Part shown: positions 35,745 through 54,141 of the stretch, one piece after another
Layout of the letters: each line of letters begins with the position of its first letter
How positions within the stretch are numbered: position 1 is the stretch's first letter
Assembly (NCBI RefSeq): GCF_000964425.1
Contig: NZ_BANF01000044.1
Span: forward strand, 1 to 64,000
Direction of reading: 5' to 3'
Length of the DNA stretch: 64,000 nucleotides
Origin: Komagataeibacter intermedius TF2
Lineage (GTDB): Bacteria; Pseudomonadota; Alphaproteobacteria; Acetobacterales; Acetobacteraceae
Made by a program: the position numbers and the translations under genes
Notes under the pieces: generated by a model
The model's database searches: none
Told to the model about the DNA's origin: nothing
Seen by the model: only the letters and a program-made list of their open reading frames with translations

Positions 35745-35940
35745 TTCGGACTTCTCCGTACATCCGCCCGGACGGTTTCCCCGCCGGACCGGATTTTTGC
35801 AGACATGCGGGTTCGGGCCACGCCGTGCCACAGCTTCAAGCTGTGCGTCAAACTTCAGGGCGTGGCAAGCCGCTGGGGTCGGGCATCCCTTCACGAAGCG
35901 GATACCGCGCCATCAATGTAACATGAACGGAAGAAAAGGT

Positions 35941-36222
35941 GGGAGGGCTTCTGTTGCCCGGTGCCCTCCCGAACCGCGCTTATCGCTTATGCAGCGACAG
36001 CGAGCACCTCAGAGTTATCATTGGCACTTGTAATTTAGCCCGATAACGGTGGTACAATGCCGGGCAAAAGGCGGGTCTTTACCATGCGTGTCGAGCCTGT
36101 TTCGTCCCCATGTTCCCCCTGAGGGAGAAATTTGGTGGAGACGCCGGGTACCGCCCCCGGGTCCACAACACTTATTCCACGCGCCGTTTATCGCCATAGC
36201 CAAGGGGCAAGCCCCTCCGGCA
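35941..36222 (-). ncRNA. ssrA: transfer-messenger RNA, permuted two-piece alphaproteobacterial type
   Basis: The minus strand first encodes the acceptor piece, with a T-arm (CCGGG, then CCCGG) and the 3' end GTCTCCACCA at 36133. After a 23-nt spacer (36110-36132) the coding piece starts at 36109 with GGGGACGAAACAGG. GGGGACG pairs with CGTCTCC to make the 7-bp acceptor stem (one G-U). The tag frame is at 36025-35987: GCC AAT GAT AAC TCT GAG GTG CTC GCT GTC GCT GCA TAA, giving ANDNSEVLAVAA. The 3' end has a GGGAGGGC/GCCCTCCC hairpin followed by ACCTTTTCTT, likely terminator or terminal stem. The acceptor 5' end is approximate. The RNA rescues stalled ribosomes and tags nascent chains. Confidence 0.93.
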
Positions 36223-36228
36223 TTTTCG

Positions 36229-36257
36229 GATATAGGGACTGGCCGCGCATCTGGCAA
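36229..36257 (-). promoter_or_regulatory. predicted sigma-70 type promoter for ssrA
   Basis: On the minus strand TTGCCA (36257-36252) and TATATC (36234-36229) are separated by exactly 17 bases, placing the transcript start near 36222, just upstream of the acceptor piece. Prediction from pattern only. Confidence 0.6.
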
Positions 36258-42725: not shown

Positions 42726-43979
42726 TCACGCGGCACTGGTCAGCCTGTCCGGGCGTGCGCCCGCGACAAGCTGGCCGATCAGCCGGTGATAGCGCGCCAT
42801 GTAGGCGTGCATGTCCAGCGTGCGTTCCGCCTGCGCACGGACACTGGCCCGCAGCCTGCGCGCCAGCCGCCCGTCTTCCAGCAGTTCCAGCACGCCGTCG
42901 GCAATGCGCCGGGGGTCAAGGAAGGGCACAAGCCGCGCCGTCCTGCCATCATGCAGGAATTCCGCGACCGGGGGCGTCCGGCTGCCCACGATGGCGCAGC
43001 CACTGGCCATCGCCTCCCGCAGCGACCATGACACCACAAACGGGTATGTCAGATAGACATGCGCGTCAGAACGTTGCAGCAGGCGGCAGAAATCACCGTA
43101 CCCGACCCTGCCTGTAAAATGGACGCGCGCCGTATCCAGCGTGCCACCCAGTTCCGCCAGCATGTGCTGCCGCCATGTCCGGCCATCCGGCGCACGGCCG
43201 CCATAGCTGACGCCATCGCCCCCCACCACGATCACCCGCACATCGCCGCGCGCGCGCAGGATATGCGGCAGCGCACGCATGAAGACGTGGAACCCGCGAT
43301 ATGGCTCCAGATCGCGGGCAATATAGGTCACCAGTTTTTCGCCCGCCGCCACATGGATGTCCCCCAGCACGAAGGGGCGCATGCCAGCCTGCGGATCGGG
43401 CACGCACCGGTCCAGATCCACCCCTTCGGGCAGAAGGGTAATGCGCGCGCGCGCCCAGTCGGGATAGGTATCGCGCTGGAAACGGGTGGGCGAGTGTCCC
43501 CAGCCTGCCCCGGCAAGGGCCAGCAGGTTCAGCGTATTGCGCGCCCGCACCAGCGGGGCGACGCCGGACGCCGGGGCGAATTCCGGGTCAAAGCCGACAT
43601 CCAGCCCGGTGGGGTGATAGAAGAATTCGTAATATCCCAGCATCGGCACGTCAGGATAGACATCGGCCAGTTCCAGCATCTCACCCCAGCCATGGTGGCC
43701 AATGATGATGTCGGGCACATAGCCCAGCCCCCGCAGGGTACGGGCCGCACGCGCCACCTCCGCCGCACGCTGCATGGCACGTGCCAGTTCCGCCACCGGG
43801 GCGGAGGCATCAACCCGCGCTGGCGGCGGCAGGCGATAGGATACCCGCCGCACGCCGGGTATCTGCACCCGGCCCGTTTCACTTATGAAAACGATCTCGT
43901 TTCCGCCGCGCGCCTGCAGGTCGCGCAGCAGGTGCACGAACTGGCCGGGAAAATTCTGGTGCACGAACAGGTATTTCAT
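42726..43979 (-). CDS. GT4-family glycosyltransferase
   Basis: 417 aa, GT-B fold. The N-terminal Rossmann half begins MKYLFVHQNFPGQFVHLLRDL; the C-terminal half has KLVTYIARDLEPYRGFHVFMRAL, RVIVVGG, then SDAHVYLTYPFVVSWSLREAMASGCAIVGSRTPPVAEFL with the E-x7-E-like nucleotide-sugar site. The insertion GYYEFFYHPTGLDVGFDPEFAP is characteristic of a branch often found next to exopolysaccharide or secretion genes. The start at 43979 is the ATG of MKYLF; upstream in-frame codons are Arg-rich and non-homologous. It is the last gene of the six-gene operon, 31 bp after the unknown-family gene. Acceptor and donor unknown. Confidence 0.88.
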   Translation of the reverse strand: MKYLFVHQNFPGQFVHLLRDLQARGGNEIVFISETGRVQIPGVRRVSYRLPPPARVDASAPVAELARAMQRAAEVARAARTLRGLGYVPDIIIGHHGWGEMLELADVYPDVPMLGYYEFFYHPTGLDVGFDPEFAPASGVAPLVRARNTLNLLALAGAGWGHSPTRFQRDTYPDWARARITLLPEGVDLDRCVPDPQAGMRPFVLGDIHVAAGEKLVTYIARDLEPYRGFHVFMRALPHILRARGDVRVIVVGGDGVSYGGRAPDGRTWRQHMLAELGGTLDTARVHFTGRVGYGDFCRLLQRSDAHVYLTYPFVVSWSLREAMASGCAIVGSRTPPVAEFLHDGRTARLVPFLDPRRIADGVLELLEDGRLARRLRASVRAQAERTLDMHAYMARYHRLIGQLVAGARPDRLTSAA

Positions 43980-44010
43980 GTCCGGCCGTCCCGGCCTTTC
44001 CCCCCGATGG

Positions 44011-45126
44011 TCACGACTGCGCCACGGTGCGCGACCTGCGGCCCGTCCTGCGGCTTCGCCCCCGCGTGGATGCGGTGACGGGAGCCGCAACCGGCTTTTC
44101 GGGCCTGCGGTGCCACCACGGCACGGGTTTATCCGCTGCGGCATCCGGCAGGGCGGGCGGTTCGACAGCTACGCGCGGGGGCACGACACGCCTGCCCCGC
44201 CGCACGCGGGGAACAGAAGGCGCGGACTGGTCAGCGGGGGGCATGGTGGCTGGCGCAGCCTTCCCTGCCGCATCTTCAGGTGATGGATCAGATAACGCCG
44301 CCGCCTGACGGGGCAGGATTTCGATACGGAAGGCCTCAAGCGGCGCCTGCGAGGACGCCATGACCGGCGCATCCTCCAGCGGGCCAAGATGGGTGCCGTC
44401 GGTAAAACAGGCTTCGATCCGGCAGACGAACTGCCGCGCGGCCTCCCCTTTCAGGCGCACCCGCAGCCCCAGCAGCGGCAGCGCCATGCCCCGACTGCCG
44501 CAATAGGCGCCACCATTCACCCATGGCGAAAACCAGTCTGCGCCCAGAATGGCCTGATATTCCATATCCCCTGCCGCAAGACCGGGGGCAGGCTGGATGG
44601 CGAACCCTTCCATCCACTGCCTGCCGCCCCTTTTGCCCATCCACGTCCCGAGTGCCGCGCTGACGTCACCGCGTCCCTGGATATGGGCGATCATGCCACC
44701 TGCCCTGACATCCCCTGCCGCCTGCGCGGATGACGGTACGGCCGCCGCAGCAGCAGTCACCTGCGGCCCGGACAGCCTGACCACCTGCAATCCCGGCAGG
44801 GCCGCCCCGTCACGCGCCGGATCGCGATAGGTAGTGACCAGCACTGCCCCCCCGTCATCGGGCATGCGCACGAGGGCCGCGCCCCCTTTCGCACCCATCC
44901 AGCCATCCGCGTCAAACGTGCTGACCCGCACCGCATCCATGCCGGGCGGCACGGTCACGCGCATGCCCGACAGCGGCGCAAACCCCGCGCCCGCCGGAAC
45001 GGCTGCGTGGAAAATGCAGTACGTTCCGGCCTCCAGCCGCATAAGCTGTGCGCTGGCCTGTACATCTCCCGCCTGCGGGGCGGCGCGTGCGGCCTCCATC
45101 ACCAACGTCCCGCCACAGGACAGCAC
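44011..45126 (-). CDS. protein of unknown family in the secretion/glycosylation operon
   Basis: About 371 aa, not recognised. Residues 1-270 look beta-rich (GTYCIFHAAVPAGAG, MRVTVPPGMDAVRVSTFDADGWMG, AVLVTTYRDPARDG, ADWFSPWVNGGAYCGSRGMALPLLGLRVRLKGEAARQFVCRIEACFTDGTHLGPL), which could be a carbohydrate-binding or jelly-roll-like domain (inference). The last 100 residues are Pro/Ala/Arg-rich and basic (VPRVRRGRRVVPPRVAV, RRTGRRSRTVAQS), probably disordered. No signal peptide is clear. The GTG at 45126 or the ATG at 45099 could be the start. It lies between the two glycosyltransferase genes with 34- and 31-bp gaps. Confidence 0.65.
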   Translation of the reverse strand: MLSCGGTLVMEAARAAPQAGDVQASAQLMRLEAGTYCIFHAAVPAGAGFAPLSGMRVTVPPGMDAVRVSTFDADGWMGAKGGAALVRMPDDGGAVLVTTYRDPARDGAALPGLQVVRLSGPQVTAAAAAVPSSAQAAGDVRAGGMIAHIQGRGDVSAALGTWMGKRGGRQWMEGFAIQPAPGLAAGDMEYQAILGADWFSPWVNGGAYCGSRGMALPLLGLRVRLKGEAARQFVCRIEACFTDGTHLGPLEDAPVMASSQAPLEAFRIEILPRQAAALSDPSPEDAAGKAAPATMPPADQSAPSVPRVRRGRRVVPPRVAVEPPALPDAAADKPVPWWHRRPEKPVAAPVTASTRGRSRRTGRRSRTVAQS

Positions 45127-45160
45127 AGCACCGCGCGCATATGGGCTGGGGCAATAACGA

Positions 45161-48148
45161 TCAAGACAGACCTCTTTTGCTTACATCATGAATGGGCTGG
45201 GCCGTGACGGAGTGCCCGGCCCGGGCATAAGACAGCAAAAACGTATTCAATTGGTGAACGGGCAGCCCCAGCGGCACGCATGCCCCGCGCCCTGTCGCCC
45301 GGATACGGTCGGCCACCGCGCCAAGGTCAAACGCCACGCAGCGCAGGTCCGCGCGCCATAGCTGGGTCAGGGTAAAGCACCATGTCTCGGGACAGATGGA
45401 AGGCACGAACCCCACGTCGCCCCGCGCGCCACGCAGCAGGGACACGGCGTCTTCCCCACCATAAGGGCCGGTAATGAAAACGCGTCCGGTGTCCAGCAGG
45501 GGCGCGTCATCGGATGTATGCCCCACCACAATGAATTCCAGCGCAAGGTCGCGCGCGCGCGCATCCTGCGCCGCCGCCAGTAATATCCCATGCCCCTTGT
45601 CCGGCCCGATCCCGCCCGCCACCACAACCCGGCACCGCCCGGTCCGTGGCGGCAGGCCGGAGGCAGGGCGGGCCGCACAGCCTGCCGCGAACCGGCGCAG
45701 GGACAGGTCCGGACAGTCATTTTCCAACGCTGATATTTCACATGAAACATCCGGAACATGCCGCGCCAGCCTGCGGGCCACATCCGCCGACGGCACGACC
45801 ACACGCCGCGCACCCGCCAGTTCACGGGCCGTATCGCGCCGCAGGCGGGCCACATCCACTTCCCCCACCAGCGAGCCCAGCGCCTGGACACAGGCCCGGC
45901 ATCCCGCCGCATCCGGCTCCCCGCAGTACCGCCCGGCCGCTCCCACCAGCGTAATGCGTGGACATATCCCGGCATAATCATGCACATGCCGGTCATAGGG
46001 CACATCCAGCCGCGCACACAGGTCATGCACCCGCCTGCCGTGACCCAGATGGTGATGCACCTCGACCAGCCGCAGCCCGAACGCGCGCAGCAGGCCAATC
46101 AGGCTGTCCGCCTGCCCAGGCCAGGCAAACCGCATGGCCGGACATGCATCCCCTGTCCTGCCGTCACGCAGCATGAACCCGTTTTCAGCCGGTTCCAGCA
46201 CAAGCGGAAACCGGCCTGTTTCCGCCCATTGCAGCGCACGCCCGGCCACCACGCGGGCAACGCCGCCTGCCCCGTCATGGGTCACCAGCAGCACCGCACC
46301 GTCACCCGCCATCTGGCGCGCGACACGGCGCCACACAAGAAGCGACAGCCGCTGGCGTGCCGCCGCCAGAGGGTCGGCCGCGACATGCGCCTGCACCAAT
46401 GCGTCATAACCGGGAAACAGCCGGTTCAGTATCCACAGGTTGCGCTGCTGCAACGCCCGGCGCTGCGCGCCGAAGGATACGCCCCCCACATGCCCGACAA
46501 ACACGCCAACCGCCGCCCGGTGCCGCCAGCCCGCCAGCCGGGCACGCATGGAAAAATCATTTTCCTCCCCATATCCCCGGCCATACAGTTCGGGACGGAA
46601 CAGGCCCGTCTGGCGCAGGCAGTCATGGCGGATCAGCATGCAGAAGCCGTGCGCGGTGGGAATGTCCACATCCCGCCCCCCATTGGCCCGCAGGCTGGCC
46701 GCCATAAGCTGGCGGACTTCATCCATATCGCATGTTCGGGGCCGCGCCGGGTCCGGATCAGGCCATGTCAGGATGGAGGCATCATTGGACAGGGGGGAAA
46801 CCGTGCCGGTATCAACCCGCGCATAGGCTACGCGCAGCATTTCATCCAGCCAGCCGGGGGCGACCAGCGTGTCGCTGTTCAGCAGCACGACATCCATGCC
46901 ATCCGCATCGGACAGGCCGGTATTGACCGCCGCCGGATAACCCTGATTGGCGTCATGCCGCCGCAGGCTGATCCTTCCTGCCGCCGCCCGCGTGTCCAGC
47001 GCGGTAGCCAGCATGGGGTCAGGCGTTGCATCATCCACCACCATGATATCCACTGCCGGACCATCCGACCGCCGCGCCAGTGTCTCGGTCACGCTGTCAA
47101 GGCAGGCCAGCGTGCGCGCCCGGTCCGCATAAACCGGAACAACCACCCGGCAGCGCGCCGCCCGCCGGGGAATATGGTCGGGGGTCCGCACCCGCCGTCG
47201 CATGGTGGGAAACACCTGTCGCGCCCGTGGCAGGCGCACCGGCAGGGGGGAACCGATCAACTGCCGTCCATCGGGCATGGCAACATGCACCGTGCCGTGC
47301 GGCGCCAGGTCGGACCATGCCATGCCAAACCCCCATACCGGCATGGTGGGACCGGCACCGTTTTTCCACCCCGCCCCCCACTGACGCGACAGGACCGGGG
47401 CACGCCTGCCATGGGCATCATCGGATACGGACAGGTCAGGTGGATGATCCGGCTGCGCCGGCATGACGGCCCAGCCCGTCATGCCCTGCGCATCCAGCAT
47501 GACGGCACCGGTTACATGGCACAGGGCCTGCCGGTCCGGCCGCGCACCCAGCAGGGGCGTGCCGTCATACTGCACCACAATATCATGGGCCTGCCGCCAG
47601 TACCGGGGCAGACGCACGCACTGCCCGTCATGCCGCCGGGGGGTCCATGCCTGCCCGTCCAGTATCACGTCTGGCGCGCAACCAGCAGGCAGGCCGCCCC
47701 AGTGCAGCACGCCACCGGGATCCAGCGCGCACCAGCCACGCAACGCCATGTGCTGGCAGACCAGTCCCGCCGGAACACGCAATGCCGGGTCAAAGCCATA
47801 ACAGGTGAAAAACCGGCCCAGCGCCCGCGCGGCCTGGGGCCATGCGTTCTCCACGCAGCGGGCGAGGACCAGCAGGCGCAATCCGGCCCGGAATTCCCCC
47901 TGTTCCATGACCGTCTCGATCGCACGGGCCGCACTGTTCCCGTGCCCCGCGCCCAGACGGGCGGCGGCCAGCGCGTACAGCACGCCCATATCTTCCGCCG
48001 CCAGCCGGGCCGCGCGTTCCATCCATGCCAGCGCCAGCCCATGCTGCCCCCGCCCGGCCAGATGGCGCGCGTGGCGCACGGCGCCCCCGACATCCGCATC
48101 CGGCCCCGCCGTCCCGCCCGCGTCATGACCCGGCATGTTCATCCGCAC
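45161..48148 (-). CDS. 995-aa multidomain glycosyltransferase (GT2 plus GT4-like)
   Basis: Residues 1-130 look like TPR-type helices (HARHLAGRGQHGLALAWMERAARLA, LYALAAARLGAGHGNSAARAIETVM). After a beta-rich linker, a GT2/GT-A domain spans about 325-600: CRVVVPVYADRARTLACLDSV, IMVVDDATPDP, VVLLNSDTLVAPGWLDEM (DxD-like), LYGRGYGEENDFSMRARLAGW. The C-terminal part is GT4-like: VLLVTHDGAGGVARVV, YDRHVHDYAGICPRI, VVPSADVARRLARH, RVVVAGGIGPDKGHGIL, VPSICPETWCFTLTQLW, the last being the acceptor/donor E motif. The two catalytic folds in one chain suggest sequential sugar additions. It overlaps the Sel1 gene by 26 bp; alternative starts are 48142 and 48136. Confidence 0.85.
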   Translation of the reverse strand: MRMNMPGHDAGGTAGPDADVGGAVRHARHLAGRGQHGLALAWMERAARLAAEDMGVLYALAAARLGAGHGNSAARAIETVMEQGEFRAGLRLLVLARCVENAWPQAARALGRFFTCYGFDPALRVPAGLVCQHMALRGWCALDPGGVLHWGGLPAGCAPDVILDGQAWTPRRHDGQCVRLPRYWRQAHDIVVQYDGTPLLGARPDRQALCHVTGAVMLDAQGMTGWAVMPAQPDHPPDLSVSDDAHGRRAPVLSRQWGAGWKNGAGPTMPVWGFGMAWSDLAPHGTVHVAMPDGRQLIGSPLPVRLPRARQVFPTMRRRVRTPDHIPRRAARCRVVVPVYADRARTLACLDSVTETLARRSDGPAVDIMVVDDATPDPMLATALDTRAAAGRISLRRHDANQGYPAAVNTGLSDADGMDVVLLNSDTLVAPGWLDEMLRVAYARVDTGTVSPLSNDASILTWPDPDPARPRTCDMDEVRQLMAASLRANGGRDVDIPTAHGFCMLIRHDCLRQTGLFRPELYGRGYGEENDFSMRARLAGWRHRAAVGVFVGHVGGVSFGAQRRALQQRNLWILNRLFPGYDALVQAHVAADPLAAARQRLSLLVWRRVARQMAGDGAVLLVTHDGAGGVARVVAGRALQWAETGRFPLVLEPAENGFMLRDGRTGDACPAMRFAWPGQADSLIGLLRAFGLRLVEVHHHLGHGRRVHDLCARLDVPYDRHVHDYAGICPRITLVGAAGRYCGEPDAAGCRACVQALGSLVGEVDVARLRRDTARELAGARRVVVPSADVARRLARHVPDVSCEISALENDCPDLSLRRFAAGCAARPASGLPPRTGRCRVVVAGGIGPDKGHGILLAAAQDARARDLALEFIVVGHTSDDAPLLDTGRVFITGPYGGEDAVSLLRGARGDVGFVPSICPETWCFTLTQLWRADLRCVAFDLGAVADRIRATGRGACVPLGLPVHQLNTFLLSYARAGHSVTAQPIHDVSKRGLS

Positions 48149-49895
48149 GGGTCATGCGATCCAGTTCGTCACGCGCGCCGCGTACGCCGTGCGCCGCAGC
48201 CTGTTCCAGCCAGTACCGCGCCCGCACACGGTCCACCGGCCCCGCCAGTCCCTTCACCAGATACCGGCCCAGCATGAACTGCGACAGGGCATTGCCCGCT
48301 TCCGCGCCGCGCATGAACCAGTGCAGCGCCCGCGTCCGGTCAGGCGGCAGGTCGTGACCACCACCATACAGGGCGCCAAGGGAAAACATGGCCTCGGCCC
48401 GGCCCATATGGGCGGCGCGCTGGTACAGCGCCAGTGCGCCCGCATGGTCACGGGGGCCGCCCTTCCCTTCCAGACAAAGCTGCGCCGCAACCACGCAGGC
48501 ATCGGCCAGCCCATGCCGGGCGGCGCGTTCCAGCCAGTGACGGGCGCGTGCCACATCCATCGGCACCCCGTCCCCTTCCAGCAGCATGCGCCCATACCAG
48601 TATTCGGCATTGACCACGCCCGCGCGGGCGGCACGCCCCATCCATGATGCCGCCTGCACCGGATCGGCCACCATCCCCACCCCGTCATGCAGACTGACCG
48701 CAAGGTTGAAGGCCGCGACCGGGTCCCCTGCCCGTGCCGCGGGCATGAAATCCGGCAGCGGCGTATCGGGGGTGGAGCGTGCATCCTGCCCCTGCGCCAC
48801 CAGCGCTGCCGCAAGGTCGGTCATGGCCGCGACATCACCCAGTTCCGCCGCCCGTTTCAGCCAGTGCCGGGCCTGTGCGGGATCAGCGGCAACCCCGCGT
48901 CCGTGCCGGTACAGCAGCGCCAGCATGCGACACGCCACCGCATGATCCCGGTCCGCCGCGCGGCGGTACCACATCACGGCTTCATGATCACCGGGCAGGG
49001 CCGCCTCGCCGCGCGCATGCAGGTCACCCAGCAGGGCGGCTGCCTCCCGATCCCCTGCCAGACCCGCGCGACGCAGCCATGTCTCGGCCGTCATGACATT
49101 GCGTGGCCTGTCCGCTCCCTCCTCCAGCAGCAACGCGCCATACCGCGCCTGCGCGGGGCGCACGCCCTGGGCTGCGGCGCGGGCATACCACTGTTCGGCC
49201 TGCGCCCTGTCCGCCGGCAGGCCCCAGCCCCGTTCATGCAGCAGGCCCAGCATGTACTGCGCGGTGGGCAAGCCACTATCCGCCGCGCGTATAAGGGCCG
49301 CCACCGCGTCGGGATCCGTGCCGGGCAACTGGTCCGGGGCCGAAAGATGGGCGACCGCCAGCCCCAGATCCCCCTGCGGGCATCCGGCCCGTGCCGCGCG
49401 TTCGCACCACATCCGCGCGGCCTGCGGGTCGCGTACGGGGTGCGGCCCGGTGGCCAGCAGGTAGCCATACAGGGCCTGCGCATCAGGCAGGCCGCCTTCC
49501 GCCGCCCGCCGTGCCCATTGCGTTGCCGCCACCGGATCAGGCCATTGGTCGATGCCATCGGGCAACGCCACGGGCAGCAGGCCGTCTGCCCCCCTGTGAT
49601 CGGGTGGGTCAACCAGCAGCATCAGTGCAAGGGAAAAGCAGCCTTCGACATGACCCGCGCAGGCCGCCATGTGCATCCAGTGCACGCCCTCGACAGGGCT
49701 GCGCGGGACGCCGTTGCCCTCAAGATAGGCCCGCGCGACCTGATACTGCGCCGCCACCATGCCGTCGCGCGCAAGGCGACCCAGCAGGGCGAACCCCTGT
49801 GCCGAGCGCCCTTCGTGTTCCAGCAGGCGGCATGCATGGCGGAAACGGGCCGTGGGGGATACCGCCCCCAGCAGGCCGGACAGGAACGTACGCAC
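48123..49895 (-). CDS. Sel1-like repeat protein
   Basis: 590 aa of about 13-15 Sel1-type (SLR) helical repeats, e.g. GDVAAMTDLAAALVAQG, GVVNAEYWYGRMLLEGDGVPMDVARARHWLERAARHG, GRAEAMFSLGALYGGGHDLPPDRTRALHWFMRGAEAGN. SLR proteins are alpha-solenoids that scaffold protein complexes. The GTG at 49895 starts seven bases after the HlyD stop; no typical signal peptide (MRTFLSGLLGAVSPTARF is a weak hydrophobic start), so location is unclear. It sits between the membrane-fusion protein and the large glycosyltransferase, suggesting it connects secretion with glycosylation (inference). Confidence 0.9.
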   Translation of the reverse strand: MRTFLSGLLGAVSPTARFRHACRLLEHEGRSAQGFALLGRLARDGMVAAQYQVARAYLEGNGVPRSPVEGVHWMHMAACAGHVEGCFSLALMLLVDPPDHRGADGLLPVALPDGIDQWPDPVAATQWARRAAEGGLPDAQALYGYLLATGPHPVRDPQAARMWCERAARAGCPQGDLGLAVAHLSAPDQLPGTDPDAVAALIRAADSGLPTAQYMLGLLHERGWGLPADRAQAEQWYARAAAQGVRPAQARYGALLLEEGADRPRNVMTAETWLRRAGLAGDREAAALLGDLHARGEAALPGDHEAVMWYRRAADRDHAVACRMLALLYRHGRGVAADPAQARHWLKRAAELGDVAAMTDLAAALVAQGQDARSTPDTPLPDFMPAARAGDPVAAFNLAVSLHDGVGMVADPVQAASWMGRAARAGVVNAEYWYGRMLLEGDGVPMDVARARHWLERAARHGLADACVVAAQLCLEGKGGPRDHAGALALYQRAAHMGRAEAMFSLGALYGGGHDLPPDRTRALHWFMRGAEAGNALSQFMLGRYLVKGLAGPVDRVRARYWLEQAAAHGVRGARDELDRMTRADEHAGS

Positions 49896-49902
49896 CGCCG
49901 GA

Positions 49903-51348
49903 TCAGGGTTCGCGCATGCCGTCGGTCACGGCGGGCAGCAGGCGGTTGAGCAGGTACTGCATCATGGTCCGCCGTCCAACATGGATGTCCGCCTCGACCG
50001 GCATGCCCGGCTGGGGGCGGAAAAAGGACGGCACGCCATGCAGGGTGTACCGGTCGATCGACAGGCGCACGCGGTAATAGGCATTCATCATGTCGCCCAC
50101 ATCGGTGCCCTGTTCGGCGCTGGCGCCGGGCTTCGCGGCAGAGGTGGAAAACGCATCGGGGCTGATGACGCGCACCGTCGCCTCGCCCCCGCCGTACTGG
50201 GTATAGGGAAAGGCCGCGAATTTCAGCAGCGCATGATCGCCTGCGCGCACATAACCCGCATCCACGCCGCGCAGCGTGGCTTCCACGTCCAGATGGCTGC
50301 CCGTCGGCACCAGCGTCAGCAGCGGGGTCGCGGCCTGGATGACCGAACCCGCGGACAGATGCGCGATACTCAGCACCACCGCGTCACGGTCGGCGCGCAT
50401 GACGATCAGGTCATGGTGCAGCACAGCCTTGCTGTAGCTGCCATCGGCATCCGCCAGATGGTGCTGCGCAAGGGCCAGGTCCTGATACACCGTGGCGTGC
50501 CAGTTGCTGGCGTACCCGTCGCGCTGGGCCTTCATCGCGTCAAGGCGCGCGCGGGTGCTGTCAGCCGCATGCCGGGCAGATACCTGCGAGCGCGTCACCT
50601 CCATAAGCGTATCCTGCGCCGCCAGCGTGGACAGGCGGCTGCCCACCTGTTCATGCTGCAGGCGCACGCGCATGTCCTGCACGTCGCGTGCGACACGGGC
50701 GCGTGCGGCATACATGGCGGCACTGGCCTCATACCCCTGCAGTTCGCTTTCCAGCCCCGCCACCTGTCGGTCGTAATTCGACATCTGGGCCGTGTATTCC
50801 GCCTGTCGGCGCAGATAGGCGGCGGCTTCCTGCACGGACGCGGGATCGTTCATGTCCGCCGTGTAGGGGCGGCCCTCGGCCTCCGCCGTGCGGCGGGCGA
50901 CCTCCGCCCGGTAGGCCGCGACCTGACGGCGCAGGTTGGTGACGTCCGCATCCGTCACCGTGGGGTCCAGCCGGGCCAGCACCTGTCCCTTGTGGACGGT
51001 GTCGCCCTCATGCACCTCCACCGTGCGGATGATGGAGGTCTCCAGCGGCTGCAGCACCATCGTGTCGTCAAACGGCGTCAGGCGGCCATTCACGCTGACC
51101 ACCCGGTCCAGCGGGAAAAACGTCATGACCATCAGCCCCGCCCCGGCCAGCGCCGCGACCAGCCAGATGACATAACGCGCCGCATCCGACGGCGGCAGGT
51201 CCACCAGCGCCGCGCTGGGGGAATAGAACGTCAGCAGCGCGGGCGGCAGGCCGGTGGGAATATCCGCCGTGGGCGGCGGCAGGACCGACAGGAGCCCGGC
51301 GCCATTCCCCTCATCGGGCGTGGAGGGCACAAGGTCATGGCCGCTCAT
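49903..51348 (-). CDS. type I secretion membrane-fusion protein (HlyD family)
   Basis: 481 aa. One N-terminal membrane helix (YVIWLVAALAGAGLMVMTFFPLD), then a beta-barrel/lipoyl half beginning VVSVNGRLTPFDDTMVLQPLETSIIRTVEVHEGDTVHKGQVLARLDPT, a long alpha-helical hairpin (ADVTNLRRQVAAYRAEVARRTAEAEG to AADSTRARLDAMKAQRDG), a second lipoyl half, and the family C-terminus PGMPVEADIHVGRRTMMQYLLNRL. It spans the periplasm between an ABC exporter and an outer-membrane TolC-type channel. The ATG overlaps the ABC gene's stop by four bases. No TolC-like gene is in the window. Confidence 0.95.
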   Translation of the reverse strand: MSGHDLVPSTPDEGNGAGLLSVLPPPTADIPTGLPPALLTFYSPSAALVDLPPSDAARYVIWLVAALAGAGLMVMTFFPLDRVVSVNGRLTPFDDTMVLQPLETSIIRTVEVHEGDTVHKGQVLARLDPTVTDADVTNLRRQVAAYRAEVARRTAEAEGRPYTADMNDPASVQEAAAYLRRQAEYTAQMSNYDRQVAGLESELQGYEASAAMYAARARVARDVQDMRVRLQHEQVGSRLSTLAAQDTLMEVTRSQVSARHAADSTRARLDAMKAQRDGYASNWHATVYQDLALAQHHLADADGSYSKAVLHHDLIVMRADRDAVVLSIAHLSAGSVIQAATPLLTLVPTGSHLDVEATLRGVDAGYVRAGDHALLKFAAFPYTQYGGGEATVRVISPDAFSTSAAKPGASAEQGTDVGDMMNAYYRVRLSIDRYTLHGVPSFFRPQPGMPVEADIHVGRRTMMQYLLNRLLPAVTDGMREP

Positions 51349-53597
51349 GCCGCATCTCCATGCATGTGGGAGACGGAGGGCGGTGGTCCCCCGTCATTGC
51401 CGCCGGCGGGCTGGTTCTGCTGTGTCCACAATGTGCGGTAGATGTCGCACCGCGCCAGCAGGTCCTCATGCGGGCCAATATCGACCACATGTCCATGGTC
51501 CATGACGCAGATCTGATGACATGCCACCAGCGAGGCAAGACGGTGCGAGACGATCACCATGGTCCGCCCGCGCGCAAGATGGCGCAGGTTGGCGTTGACC
51601 ACCGCCTCGCTCTCCGGATCGAGGGCGGACGTCGCCTCATCAAGGATCATGAGCCTGGGGTCCGAAATCACGGCGCGCGCGATGGCAAGGCGCTGGCGCT
51701 GGCCGCCGGATATATTGGTGGACCCTTCCTCGATCCATGTATCGAACCCGGCGGGCATGCGTTCGATGAATTCTTCCGCCCCCGCCAGGCGCGCGGCCCG
51801 CACCACGTCCTCCAGCGTCAGGCCGGGACGGCCTGCGATGATGTTGTCGCGGATGGTGCCGCGAAACAGGAAGTTGTCCTGCAGCACCACCCCGCATGAC
51901 CGGCGCAGGTAGGTCAGGTTGATTTCACGCAGTTCGATGCCATCCAGCCGCAGCTGTCCGGTATAGCTGCGGCTGACGCCCTGCAGCAGGCGCGTGATGG
52001 TTGACTTGCCCGACCCGCTGCGTCCGACCAGTCCCAGCATGGTACCCGCGGGCACGCTGAACGTCACATCCGACAGGGCCGGGGTGGACGCGCCGGGATA
52101 GGTGAAGGACACGCCCGAAAACGCCAGCGCGCCATGAATGGGCGGCCGCAGCCCGGTGGTCAGCGCACGCGTCTCGGTCGGACGGTTGAGGACGGACCCC
52201 GCTTCCGCCAGCGCGCTGCGCACCTCGTTCAGGTCATCGATCAGCCGCGCCATGCCCACCAGCGGGGACGCAACCCGGCCACCCAGCATCATGAACGCCA
52301 TAAGGGCGCCTGCCTCCATGCCCGAGGTGGTGGAGGTAATGGCCAGATAGGCCCCGATCAGGATGATGCCCCGATTGATGAACAGGTCGAGCGGCATGAC
52401 CGCCGTCGCGACCCAGTTGCTCATGCGCCCGGCATCGAGGGACGCGCTGATCACGTTGGCGGTCTTTTCATCCCACACCTCGCGCCGCACCGGTTCCAGC
52501 GCCAGCGTCTTGATGGTGCGGATACCGGCCACCGTTTCATACAGCGCGCCGCTGCGCTCCATTTCCGCGCGGATCTGCCGCCCGACCAGCCGCCCCACCG
52601 TCGGCATGGCCAGCAGGATGATCCCGCCGATCAGGGCCGCGGCAACCACCGTCAGGCAGGCAAGCGCCGTGCTGAGCCAGAACAGGAACGGCAGCACGAC
52701 CAGCAGGGTGAACAGGTCCAGGAACGTGCCCAGCAGTCGCCCGGTCATGAACTGCCGCACCTTGTAGATCGCGCTGACGCGGCCGATCACGTTGCCCGCC
52801 TGCTCACGCTCGAAGAATTCCAGCGGCAGGGCCAGCAGGCGGTCGAACACCGCCAGCGAGATACGCGTATCCAGCCGCGTGGTCATGACCAGCGTGATCT
52901 CGCGCCGGGCATAGGACAGCAGGACTTCGTAGAACGCCATCACGCCCACCAGCCCGGTCAGGGACACCAGCGTGGACATGGAATGGAAGTTCACCACCCG
53001 GTCAATGACCTGCATGACGATCAGCGGCGGGAAGATCGCCAGCACGCTTATGACCATGGAGGCGATGATCACGTCACGCAGCAGCACCCGTTCGCCCAGC
53101 ACCATGCGCCGCAGCCATGCGAAATTGACCGCATCTTCCTTCCGCCCGCCATCGTGCCGGCCGCGCACCAGCAGCACGTCGCCGGTCCACACGCCCTCCA
53201 GCCGCAGTTCATCCACCGCCACGGGCGGGGTGTCGGGACTGGCGAAGGGGTCAACCAGCCAGATCACGCCATTGGTGTCATCCGCGCCCACCATCAGCCC
53301 GGCCGATCCGTCGGCAAACATCAGCGCGACCGGCGGCACGTCACGCAGGCGCACAAGGTCGCGCCATTGCAGGCGCATGCCCTGCGCGGTGCCGCCATTT
53401 TCCTCCACCCACCGCACCAGGGCGGGAATGGAGGGCACGGCTTCGCCCGCCTCGCCCGCGAAATCACGCACGTCAAGGTCAATGCCGTGGAAGCGGGCCG
53501 CACGCAGCACGGCCTGCAGGCGGATCAGTTCCGGTGCGTGGCGTGTCTCCGCCTGTCCGCTGCCGGTCGGGTCCGCTGATTGGTCTGGATGGCCCAC
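51345..53597 (-). CDS. type I secretion ABC exporter with degenerate C39-like domain
   Basis: 750-aa inner-membrane exporter. Residues 1-135 form a C39-peptidase-like domain (LIRLQAVLRAARFHGIDLDVRDF, DTNGVIWLVDPFAS), but the catalytic Cys near the start is missing (AVLRAARFHG), so it should bind rather than cleave a substrate signal, as in HlyB-type exporters of RTX proteins. Six membrane helices follow (150-440), then the ATPase: GLVGRSGSGKSTITRLLQ, NISGGQRQRLAIARAVI, RLMILDEATSALD, SHRLASL. GTG start with AAGGGG upstream. It is the first gene of the operon to 42726. Substrate not in window. Confidence 0.95.
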   Translation of the reverse strand: MGHPDQSADPTGSGQAETRHAPELIRLQAVLRAARFHGIDLDVRDFAGEAGEAVPSIPALVRWVEENGGTAQGMRLQWRDLVRLRDVPPVALMFADGSAGLMVGADDTNGVIWLVDPFASPDTPPVAVDELRLEGVWTGDVLLVRGRHDGGRKEDAVNFAWLRRMVLGERVLLRDVIIASMVISVLAIFPPLIVMQVIDRVVNFHSMSTLVSLTGLVGVMAFYEVLLSYARREITLVMTTRLDTRISLAVFDRLLALPLEFFEREQAGNVIGRVSAIYKVRQFMTGRLLGTFLDLFTLLVVLPFLFWLSTALACLTVVAAALIGGIILLAMPTVGRLVGRQIRAEMERSGALYETVAGIRTIKTLALEPVRREVWDEKTANVISASLDAGRMSNWVATAVMPLDLFINRGIILIGAYLAITSTTSGMEAGALMAFMMLGGRVASPLVGMARLIDDLNEVRSALAEAGSVLNRPTETRALTTGLRPPIHGALAFSGVSFTYPGASTPALSDVTFSVPAGTMLGLVGRSGSGKSTITRLLQGVSRSYTGQLRLDGIELREINLTYLRRSCGVVLQDNFLFRGTIRDNIIAGRPGLTLEDVVRAARLAGAEEFIERMPAGFDTWIEEGSTNISGGQRQRLAIARAVISDPRLMILDEATSALDPESEAVVNANLRHLARGRTMVIVSHRLASLVACHQICVMDHGHVVDIGPHEDLLARCDIYRTLWTQQNQPAGGNDGGPPPSVSHMHGDAA

Positions 53598-53684: not shown

Positions 53685-54071
53685 TCAGGCCGGTCCCGTG
53701 CGCGGGGGCCGCACGGCAAAGCGCGCGCTGACCAGGACATCCGCGGACAGCGCGGCCCGCCAGGCAGCTTCCTGCCCCCGTGGCGGCAGCACGGCCACGC
53801 GGTCGAACCATTTCAGGGCGCCCGTGGCGCGCCTGCGGAACGCATCCCCCAGCACGGCGGCCAGCCCGCCCCCGCGCCCCGTGCAGCACGCGCACCCCGC
53901 CACGTGCGCAAACGGGGTGATGGCGGCCTGGTCTACCGTGACAATCCCCGCCCATGCGGCGGGCTGCGGCGGCGTGTCACCACCGCCCACAACCAGCAGC
54001 GTATCGGAACGCGGCGGAATGGCTGCGGGACCATTCATGAATTCCAGCGCGATGCGCCCGTCACCGCTCAT
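53685..54071 (-). CDS. truncated G3E-GTPase-like protein (CxCC motif, no P-loop)
   Basis: 128 aa. The segment VAGCACCTGRGGGLAAVLGDAFRRRATGALKWFDRVAVLP resembles the metal-binding GCxCCTxRGDL and following helix of COG0523/CobW-type metallochaperone GTPases, and the upstream IVTVDQAAITPFAH resembles their strand before it. The Walker A (GxxxxGKT) and the C-terminal domain are absent; an N-terminal VVGGGD replaces the P-loop region. It could be a degraded paralogue or a small metal-binding protein. The ATG at 54071 follows GGAG by six bases. It is divergent from metH and 87 bp upstream of the secretion operon. Confidence 0.55.
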   Translation of the reverse strand: MSGDGRIALEFMNGPAAIPPRSDTLLVVGGGDTPPQPAAWAGIVTVDQAAITPFAHVAGCACCTGRGGGLAAVLGDAFRRRATGALKWFDRVAVLPPRGQEAAWRAALSADVLVSARFAVRPPRTGPA

Positions 54072-54141
54072 GGTGTTCTCCATTCATCCATACAGGCCCG
54101 TGAACAGTCCCCATTTGGGCAATGGTTCTGGACACCAGCCG

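Follow-up and report, generated by a model that had tools for sequence, protein, structure and literature searches.

What is exported by an operon in which an ABC exporter and its adaptor are joined to three glycosyltransferase (GT) domains, and what would those enzymes glycosylate? This question is raised by a 64,000-nucleotide stretch of Komagataeibacter intermedius TF2 DNA (contig NZ_BANF01000044.1, positions 1 to 64,000, from a 3.88 Mb draft genome; hereafter, the window), where six consecutive genes on the minus strand (42726-53597) encode, in this order, an ABC exporter, a HlyD-type adaptor, a Sel1-repeat protein, a GT2+GT4 fusion protein (GT995), a protein designated P5 and a GT4-family glycosyltransferase. 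An original prediction, made from the sequence alone, proposed that these genes export and glycosylate a large surface protein encoded elsewhere. In the reading that we consider probable, the operon is devoted to type I secretion and couples it to the cytoplasmic glycosylation of a small RTX-like surface protein. The pairing of exporter and cargo is the stronger claim, and we hold it with considerable confidence; glycosylation of the cargo, to which the linkage of the genes points, appears likely.

The six-gene unit and its conservation

The original prediction had described six closely spaced genes (gaps of -26 to +34 bp), and their open reading frames (ORFs), order, domains and gaps were confirmed. 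After start correction, the intergenic distances are -4 bp (ABC/HlyD), +7 bp (HlyD/Sel1), -26 bp (Sel1/GT995), +34 bp (GT995/P5) and +31 bp (P5/GT4). The full-length GT4 ORF (42726-44144) overlaps P5, but only because it has an upstream start; the gene most likely starts at 43979 (MKYLFVHQNFPGQ), giving the +31 bp spacing to P5.

The exporter (51345-53597, minus strand; 750 amino acids; PF00664 and PF00005) has a C39-like N-terminal domain, and its best-scoring family was TIGR01846, the HlyB subfamily, with 511.3 bits against a cut-off of 725.55. Because that cut-off was not reached, we class the protein by its sequence as HlyB-like and not as HlyB. No position in its first 150 residues holds a cysteine in more than 4 of 68 aligned homologues; the C39-like domain, as the original prediction had named it, is therefore of the non-peptidase type, and the exporter should not cleave a leader peptide. 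Its nearest relative among the named loci found in the exporter search was that of Komagataeibacter oboediens (98%). The periplasmic adaptor (49903-51348, minus strand; 481 amino acids) exceeded the TIGR01843 cut-off (303.6 bits against 208.65). The Sel1-repeat protein (48123-49895, minus strand; 590 amino acids) has 11 repeat stretches (PF08238, E=1.6e-78) and may act as a scaffold or substrate-binding partner. GT995 (45161-48148, minus strand; 995 amino acids) contains a GT2 domain at residues 335-512 (PF00535, 58.9 bits against a cut-off of 23.3) followed by a GT4-type domain at residues 840-959, which at 25.9 bits falls just under the PF13692 cut-off of 27, and the last gene (42726-43979, minus strand) encodes a protein matching PF12000 and PF13692. 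Both of the glycosyltransferase genes originally recognized thus stand, with the amendment that GT995 alone has two GT domains and the operon three.

We surveyed 150 Acetobacteraceae genomes, in which Sel1 was detected in 106 (E<=1e-30) and P5 in 104 (E<=1e-3). Gene order was compared in 71 loci that were not randomly chosen: 20 were taken from contiguous genomes that contain P5, and the other 51, all named Acetobacteraceae, came from an exporter search (five further loci from that search proved to be unrelated ABC matches and were excluded, and some genomes are represented twice). All six genes were present in the same order and on the same strand in 69 of these 71 loci, while L072 and L073 contained the first three genes and then reached the end of the contig. 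The gene-order search proposed with the original prediction, in which failure to co-occur was to count against a common unit, did not refute it. Genera with the unit include Komagataeibacter, Novacetimonas, Gluconacetobacter, Asaia, Swaminathania, Bombella, Saccharibacter and one Acetobacter.

In the 76 genomes in which Sel1 and P5 share a contig, the spacing between the two genes was at least 2.8 kb in all except three, which are not among the 71 loci: G031 (contig C272, 186 bp), G041 (contig C255, locus L226, 78 bp) and G133 (contig C274, 1212 bp). Because the spacing in G031 and G041 is too short for it, GT995 is absent between Sel1 and P5 in these two genomes; in G133 it is missing or shortened. 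Two additional gene pairs were also seen: a second GT995-P5 pair apart from the main operon of the same genome (L122, G018:C53), and a second ABC-HlyD pair (L230, G143:C1:2952001-2972000; 51% and 41% identity) in a stretch that had no Sel1 or P5 match.

A co-occurring RTX-like family as candidate cargo

No recurrent large secreted protein was found beside the operon in the family loci, apart from an autotransporter-like family (judged by eye; median 1153 amino acids) that lies upstream of the ABC gene on the same strand in 7 loci, such as L044, at a median distance of about 2.5 kb. RTX repeats (PF00353) were present in 122 of the 150 family genomes, and exactly one PF00353 match was found in 8 of 12 hand-chosen genomes with the system. 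One was found in the genome of the window; its protein, of about 470 amino acids (G000:C906:58488-59900), is encoded at a site remote from the operon, in agreement with the original expectation that the substrate gene would lie elsewhere. This candidate was similar (E<=6e-16) to every one of the 13 other frames extracted from the loci of the hand-chosen genomes. Two of those frames are a single protein that was listed twice, and L145, a locus that yielded no frame, was left out.

The 25 aligned members of this family are 363-514 amino acids long, and some relatives are longer (e.g., 790 amino acids in G046). They begin with a sequence like MAIVTVVGASG, continue with beta-strand repeats and end with a sequence like GGNTTIxLxDxxxITFVGVTDLxxxxF; they are acidic (median isoelectric point 4.05), and 24 of the 25 have no cysteine. 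In a PDB search, positions 343-445 of the 456-position profile aligned with serralysins at their RTX ends, and lipases and CyaA also matched the profile. Serralysins, lipases and CyaA are type I secretion substrates. PF00353 was above its cut-off in three of five scanned family cargo proteins, in which no other Pfam family was seen and no NCBIfam model scored above cut-off. A small acidic RTX-like protein is thus the likely cargo of the operon. The original prediction had suggested a search for a large Gly/Asp-rich repeat protein; we found a co-occurring RTX-like family and a conserved exporter and GT unit that apparently serves a protein encoded elsewhere, and the part of that proposal that has to be given up is the size.

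To measure co-occurrence, a genome was counted as having the system when Sel1 was found, or, for G027 and G128, when P5 and the exporter were found (n=108). With a cargo profile built from the 25 members, all from system genomes (A2, E<=1e-14), cargo homologues were detected in 82 of these 108 genomes and in 4 of the 42 others (Fisher p=4e-14), and counting by genus, which is the furthest that these tests are corrected for phylogeny, gave 60 of 75 with the system and 2 of 27 without (p=2e-11). The association was seen at E thresholds of 1e-10 (p=8e-8), 1e-20 (p=7e-11) and 1e-30 (p=9e-9) as well. The operon's HlyD was the sole type I adaptor found in the window's genome (TIGR01843, E<=1e-20; 10 of 36 candidates scored), and because this single adaptor stands alongside a single PF00353 match, exporter and cargo are paired there by elimination. 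Exactly one TIGR01843 adaptor match was found in 66 of the 108 system genomes. Furthermore, the three genomes short of GT995 were all without a clear cargo homologue, compared to 13 of the 73 other same-contig genomes (p=0.008).

For the neighborhood of the cargo gene we fetched 15 loci, two of them from one genome. nadE was inside the fetched stretch in 13 of the 15, and in most of the inspected loci no more than a few kb separated it from the cargo gene. A two-domain GT gene (a GT4/GT4 or GT4/GT2 fusion) adjoins the cargo gene in 9 of the 15 loci, and an RgpF-like gene is present in 7 of these 9.

Operon and cargo genes have also decayed together in one genome. G126 and G046 belong to one genus and share 91-95% DNA identity in the compared stretches; relative to G046, the ABC, HlyD, Sel1, GT995 and GT4 genes of G126 are split or truncated, and P5 DNA was not found in this comparison. 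Also not intact were three paralogues of the cargo gene, together with the GT gene and the DUF2142 gene adjoining one of them. In total, none of 11 linked genes was intact, whereas 22 of the 28 other ORFs were (p=7e-6). The limit for intactness was set at 93% (one cargo paralogue of G126 keeps 87% in one frame), and L181:16625-17419, the DNA of which is present, was nevertheless scored as not intact. The comparison ORFs were called mechanically, had at least 150 amino acids and had data, and two cut by the fetched ends and seven outside the stretches were dropped. Sequencing errors may be behind the broken genes of G126.

P5, related loci and alternative explanations

P5 (44011-45126, minus strand; 371 amino acids) had been described in the original prediction as an unknown-family protein. 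Its C-terminal domain scored 18.0 bits on PF07538 (ChW), below the cut-off of 22. Relatives of this domain in L119 and L121 pass that cut-off, at 31.0 and 29.0 bits, and we therefore call the domain, on the basis of its sequence, ChW-like and near the ChW family. The AlphaFold model of P5 consists of two beta domains and a low-confidence tail (mean predicted local distance difference test score, 65.7). P5-type C-terminal domains are also fused to GT61, GT90, GT2 and methyltransferase domains. They were seen inside longer Acetobacteraceae proteins in L115, L116, L117, L118, L119, L120, L121, L124, L125, L127 and L128; a Pfam scan of six of these (L115, L117, L119, L121, L124 and L127) returned GT61, GT90, GT2, methyltransferase or nothing, and the others were judged by eye. 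The domain may be a general building block of glycosylation enzymes, and we propose that P5 is a glycosylation accessory protein.

A class-wide search of 289 genomes detected P5 in 5, of which three are Acetobacteraceae; in the family to which G423 belongs, 13 of 39 genomes have it. Outside the Acetobacteraceae, some loci connect genes for RTX or RTX-like proteins with genes for exporters or GTs. A single polypeptide combines GT995 and P5 in G423 and G393; its gene is followed by another one, identified by Pfam as a methyltransferase in G423, and then by GT4. Directly upstream in G423, on the same strand (L205), is the gene for an RTX protein that matches the cargo profile and has seven PF00353 stretches (1.9e-32), so that the RTX gene, the GT995/P5 fusion, the methyltransferase and GT4 form one co-directional run. 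The ABC-HlyD-Sel1 triad is present in G393, G455 and G460, and in the latter two Sel1 is followed by a gene for an acidic, cysteine-free repeat protein of 728 and 690 amino acids, respectively (L222 and L223), of which the L222 protein did not pass the PF00353 cut-off. Among 11 P5 loci from 10 of the 13 genomes of the G423 family, several of which end at contig ends, GT4 was near P5 in 7 and ABC or HlyD was in the same stretch in 4 (in L210 and L215, where the ORF filter had removed P5, it was placed by its coordinates). In the outgroup locus L212, ABC-HlyD is accompanied by P5, one additional gene and GT4; a gene for a response-regulator-like transcription factor lies there between the ABC and P5 genes (L212:3812-4570) and is a possible regulator of the system in that locus.

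These observations are consistent with a model in which the cargo, synthesized in the cytosol and lacking a signal peptide, would receive glycans from GT995, P5 and the GT4 enzyme, and in several genera from further GTs encoded beside the cargo gene, while Sel1 and the P5 domain would position enzymes and cargo. The ABC/HlyD pair, together with a TolC-type outer-membrane channel encoded elsewhere, would then recognize the C-terminal signal of the cargo and export it to the surface or the medium. A more far-reaching version of this model, which we put forward tentatively and think possible, holds that this is a family-wide machine encoded at two loci, in which Sel1 and P5 build a cytoplasmic multi-enzyme complex that glycosylates the RTX protein before its HlyB-like export as a glycoprotein coat, and in which the P5 domain is a general targeting module that brings various GTs and methyltransferases to cargo of this kind.

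Several findings weigh against the proposed coupling of secretion and glycosylation. The association of cargo and system was absent at E<=1e-5 (p=0.23), and the Acetobacteraceae loci showed no recurring RTX-like gene next to the operon. Of the four genomes with a cargo match and no system, G126 is decayed and G102 has a match that covers the last third of the profile alone, in a 770-amino-acid RTX frame, whereas the other two, G004 and G082, have a cargo match and no exporter match at E<=1e-70 in drafts that are 90% and 73% complete. At least two system genomes are without the GT fusion. In G126 the MetH gene beside the operon is also damaged and 6 of the 28 other ORFs are not intact; decay in this genome is therefore not confined to the system. 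In G423 no exporter match at E<=1e-70 came up among the 90 of 192 candidates that were scored, and the cargo-profile match was weak in L223 (1.9e-7) and below the inclusion threshold in L222, where likeness among Gly/Ser/Thr/Asn-rich repeats is easily overrated. Finally, 26 of the 108 system genomes showed no cargo homologue at E<=1e-14. We tried ten of these 26 by way of nadE, which was matched in four: in G029 and G116 a related pair of proteins (42% identical) lies beside nadE, one of which matches the cargo profile weakly (9e-7), whereas G133 had no candidate beside nadE and the nadE locus of G031 ends at a contig end. A cargo match was also absent from the operon stretches of G014, G018, G041, G068, G084 and G105, which belong to the 26 and some of which are also among the ten.

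If glycosylation is the weaker link, the exporter may carry the RTX-like protein while the GT domains act on lipopolysaccharide, exopolysaccharide or another protein, the operon being shared for regulation alone. The GT families of the operon are indeed general, and no GT gene adjoins the cargo gene in any of the three Komagataeibacter loci. We nevertheless judge this explanation improbable, given the single run of RTX, GT-P5 fusion, methyltransferase and GT4 genes in L205, the GT fusions beside the cargo gene in most of the cargo loci, the joint breakage of cargo and GT genes in G126 and the lack of a clear cargo in all three genomes short of GT995.

Alternatively, the ABC/HlyD pair might export several cargos, the RTX-like family being one of them, with glycosylation serving another. 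The 26 genomes without a recognizable family member would fit this arrangement, as would the many cargo-profile matches in some system genomes (e.g., 15 in G147). Genomes rich in RTX proteins (at least 20 PF00353 matches) tend to be without the system (29 of 40, versus 42 of 150 overall); the remaining 11 of the 40 carry it, which speaks for several cargos and against a single dedicated one, and other RTX proteins could be cargo in these genomes. The one adaptor match and one PF00353 match of the window's genome argue against this explanation, which we consider still less probable than separate GT targets. That the operon makes and exports an exopolysaccharide is very improbable: several GTs and an ABC transporter do share one operon, and the Sel1 protein has sub-cut-off matches to ExoR and AlgK, which take their names from exopolysaccharide and alginate systems. 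However, the exporter and adaptor are of a type that carries proteins, and the Pfam matches of the seven ORFs (the six of the operon and one described below) include no initiating sugar-phosphate transferase, flippase, polymerase or synthase family. In addition, gum-like clusters are held responsible for the heteropolysaccharide of acetic acid bacteria (PMC5050591). Secretion of an RTX-like cargo coupled to its glycosylation thus remains the reading that we prefer.

Further window features, significance and comparison with known systems

The seventh of these ORFs, 87 bp upstream of the ABC gene (53685-54083, minus strand; 132 amino acids), matched nothing in Pfam or NCBIfam at E<=0.1. A homologue is present on the ABC strand in 24 of the 71 loci, and the ORF may be a seventh gene of the operon, and possibly its first. 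It carries a CxCC-type motif, and we take it to resemble a piece of a CobW-type GTPase, for which there was no database match. At 35896-36229 of the window, ARAGORN reported a transfer-messenger RNA, marked with an asterisk, with the tag ANDNSEVLAVAA.

If the proposed coupling is correct, most of the sampled Acetobacteraceae (108 of 150), including cellulose producers and bee symbionts, possess a surface glycoprotein system. An orphan operon would gain a concrete cargo, the ChW-like domain would gain a testable role, and the coupling of type I secretion to protein glycosylation could be tested in culturable strains. A bearing on pellicles, biofilms and colonization of the insect gut is possible, if speculative.

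Judging by titles and the openings of abstracts, we found no description of this system in full-text searches that left most subscription journals and preprints uncovered. The operon resembles classical RTX type I secretion (HlyB/HlyD/TolC) in its C39-like, non-peptidase ABC protein, in a HlyD protein above the TIGR01843 cut-off and in an acidic RTX-like cargo. It differs in adding Sel1, P5 and three GT domains, in the unlinked position of the cargo gene in the Acetobacteraceae loci and in missing the HlyB subfamily cut-off.

The accessory-Sec and HMW1C/BAHT systems likewise place dedicated cytoplasmic GTs beside a dedicated export route for glycosylated adhesins, but they use Sec2 or two-partner/autotransporter export and have other cargo. 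Type I export and linked GT genes are also features of the SwmA system, in which the protein is much larger than the cargo described here; we know of no Sel1-P5 module in that system. SwmA itself, of marine Synechococcus, is a glycosylated cell-surface protein (PMC2943079), and the two cases are alike in this respect if the Acetobacteraceae cargo is glycosylated, as we infer; unlike our system, SwmA is cyanobacterial. In Caulobacter, FlmG O-glycosylates flagellin in the cytoplasm before export, so that an exported surface protein is modified in the cytoplasm there (PMC7591256), as it would be here. The specificity of FlmG is conferred by the N-terminal protein-binding domain of the enzyme, whereas the repeat protein is separate in our operon, and export is flagellar there and by type I secretion here. 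Each of the operon's component families is already known.

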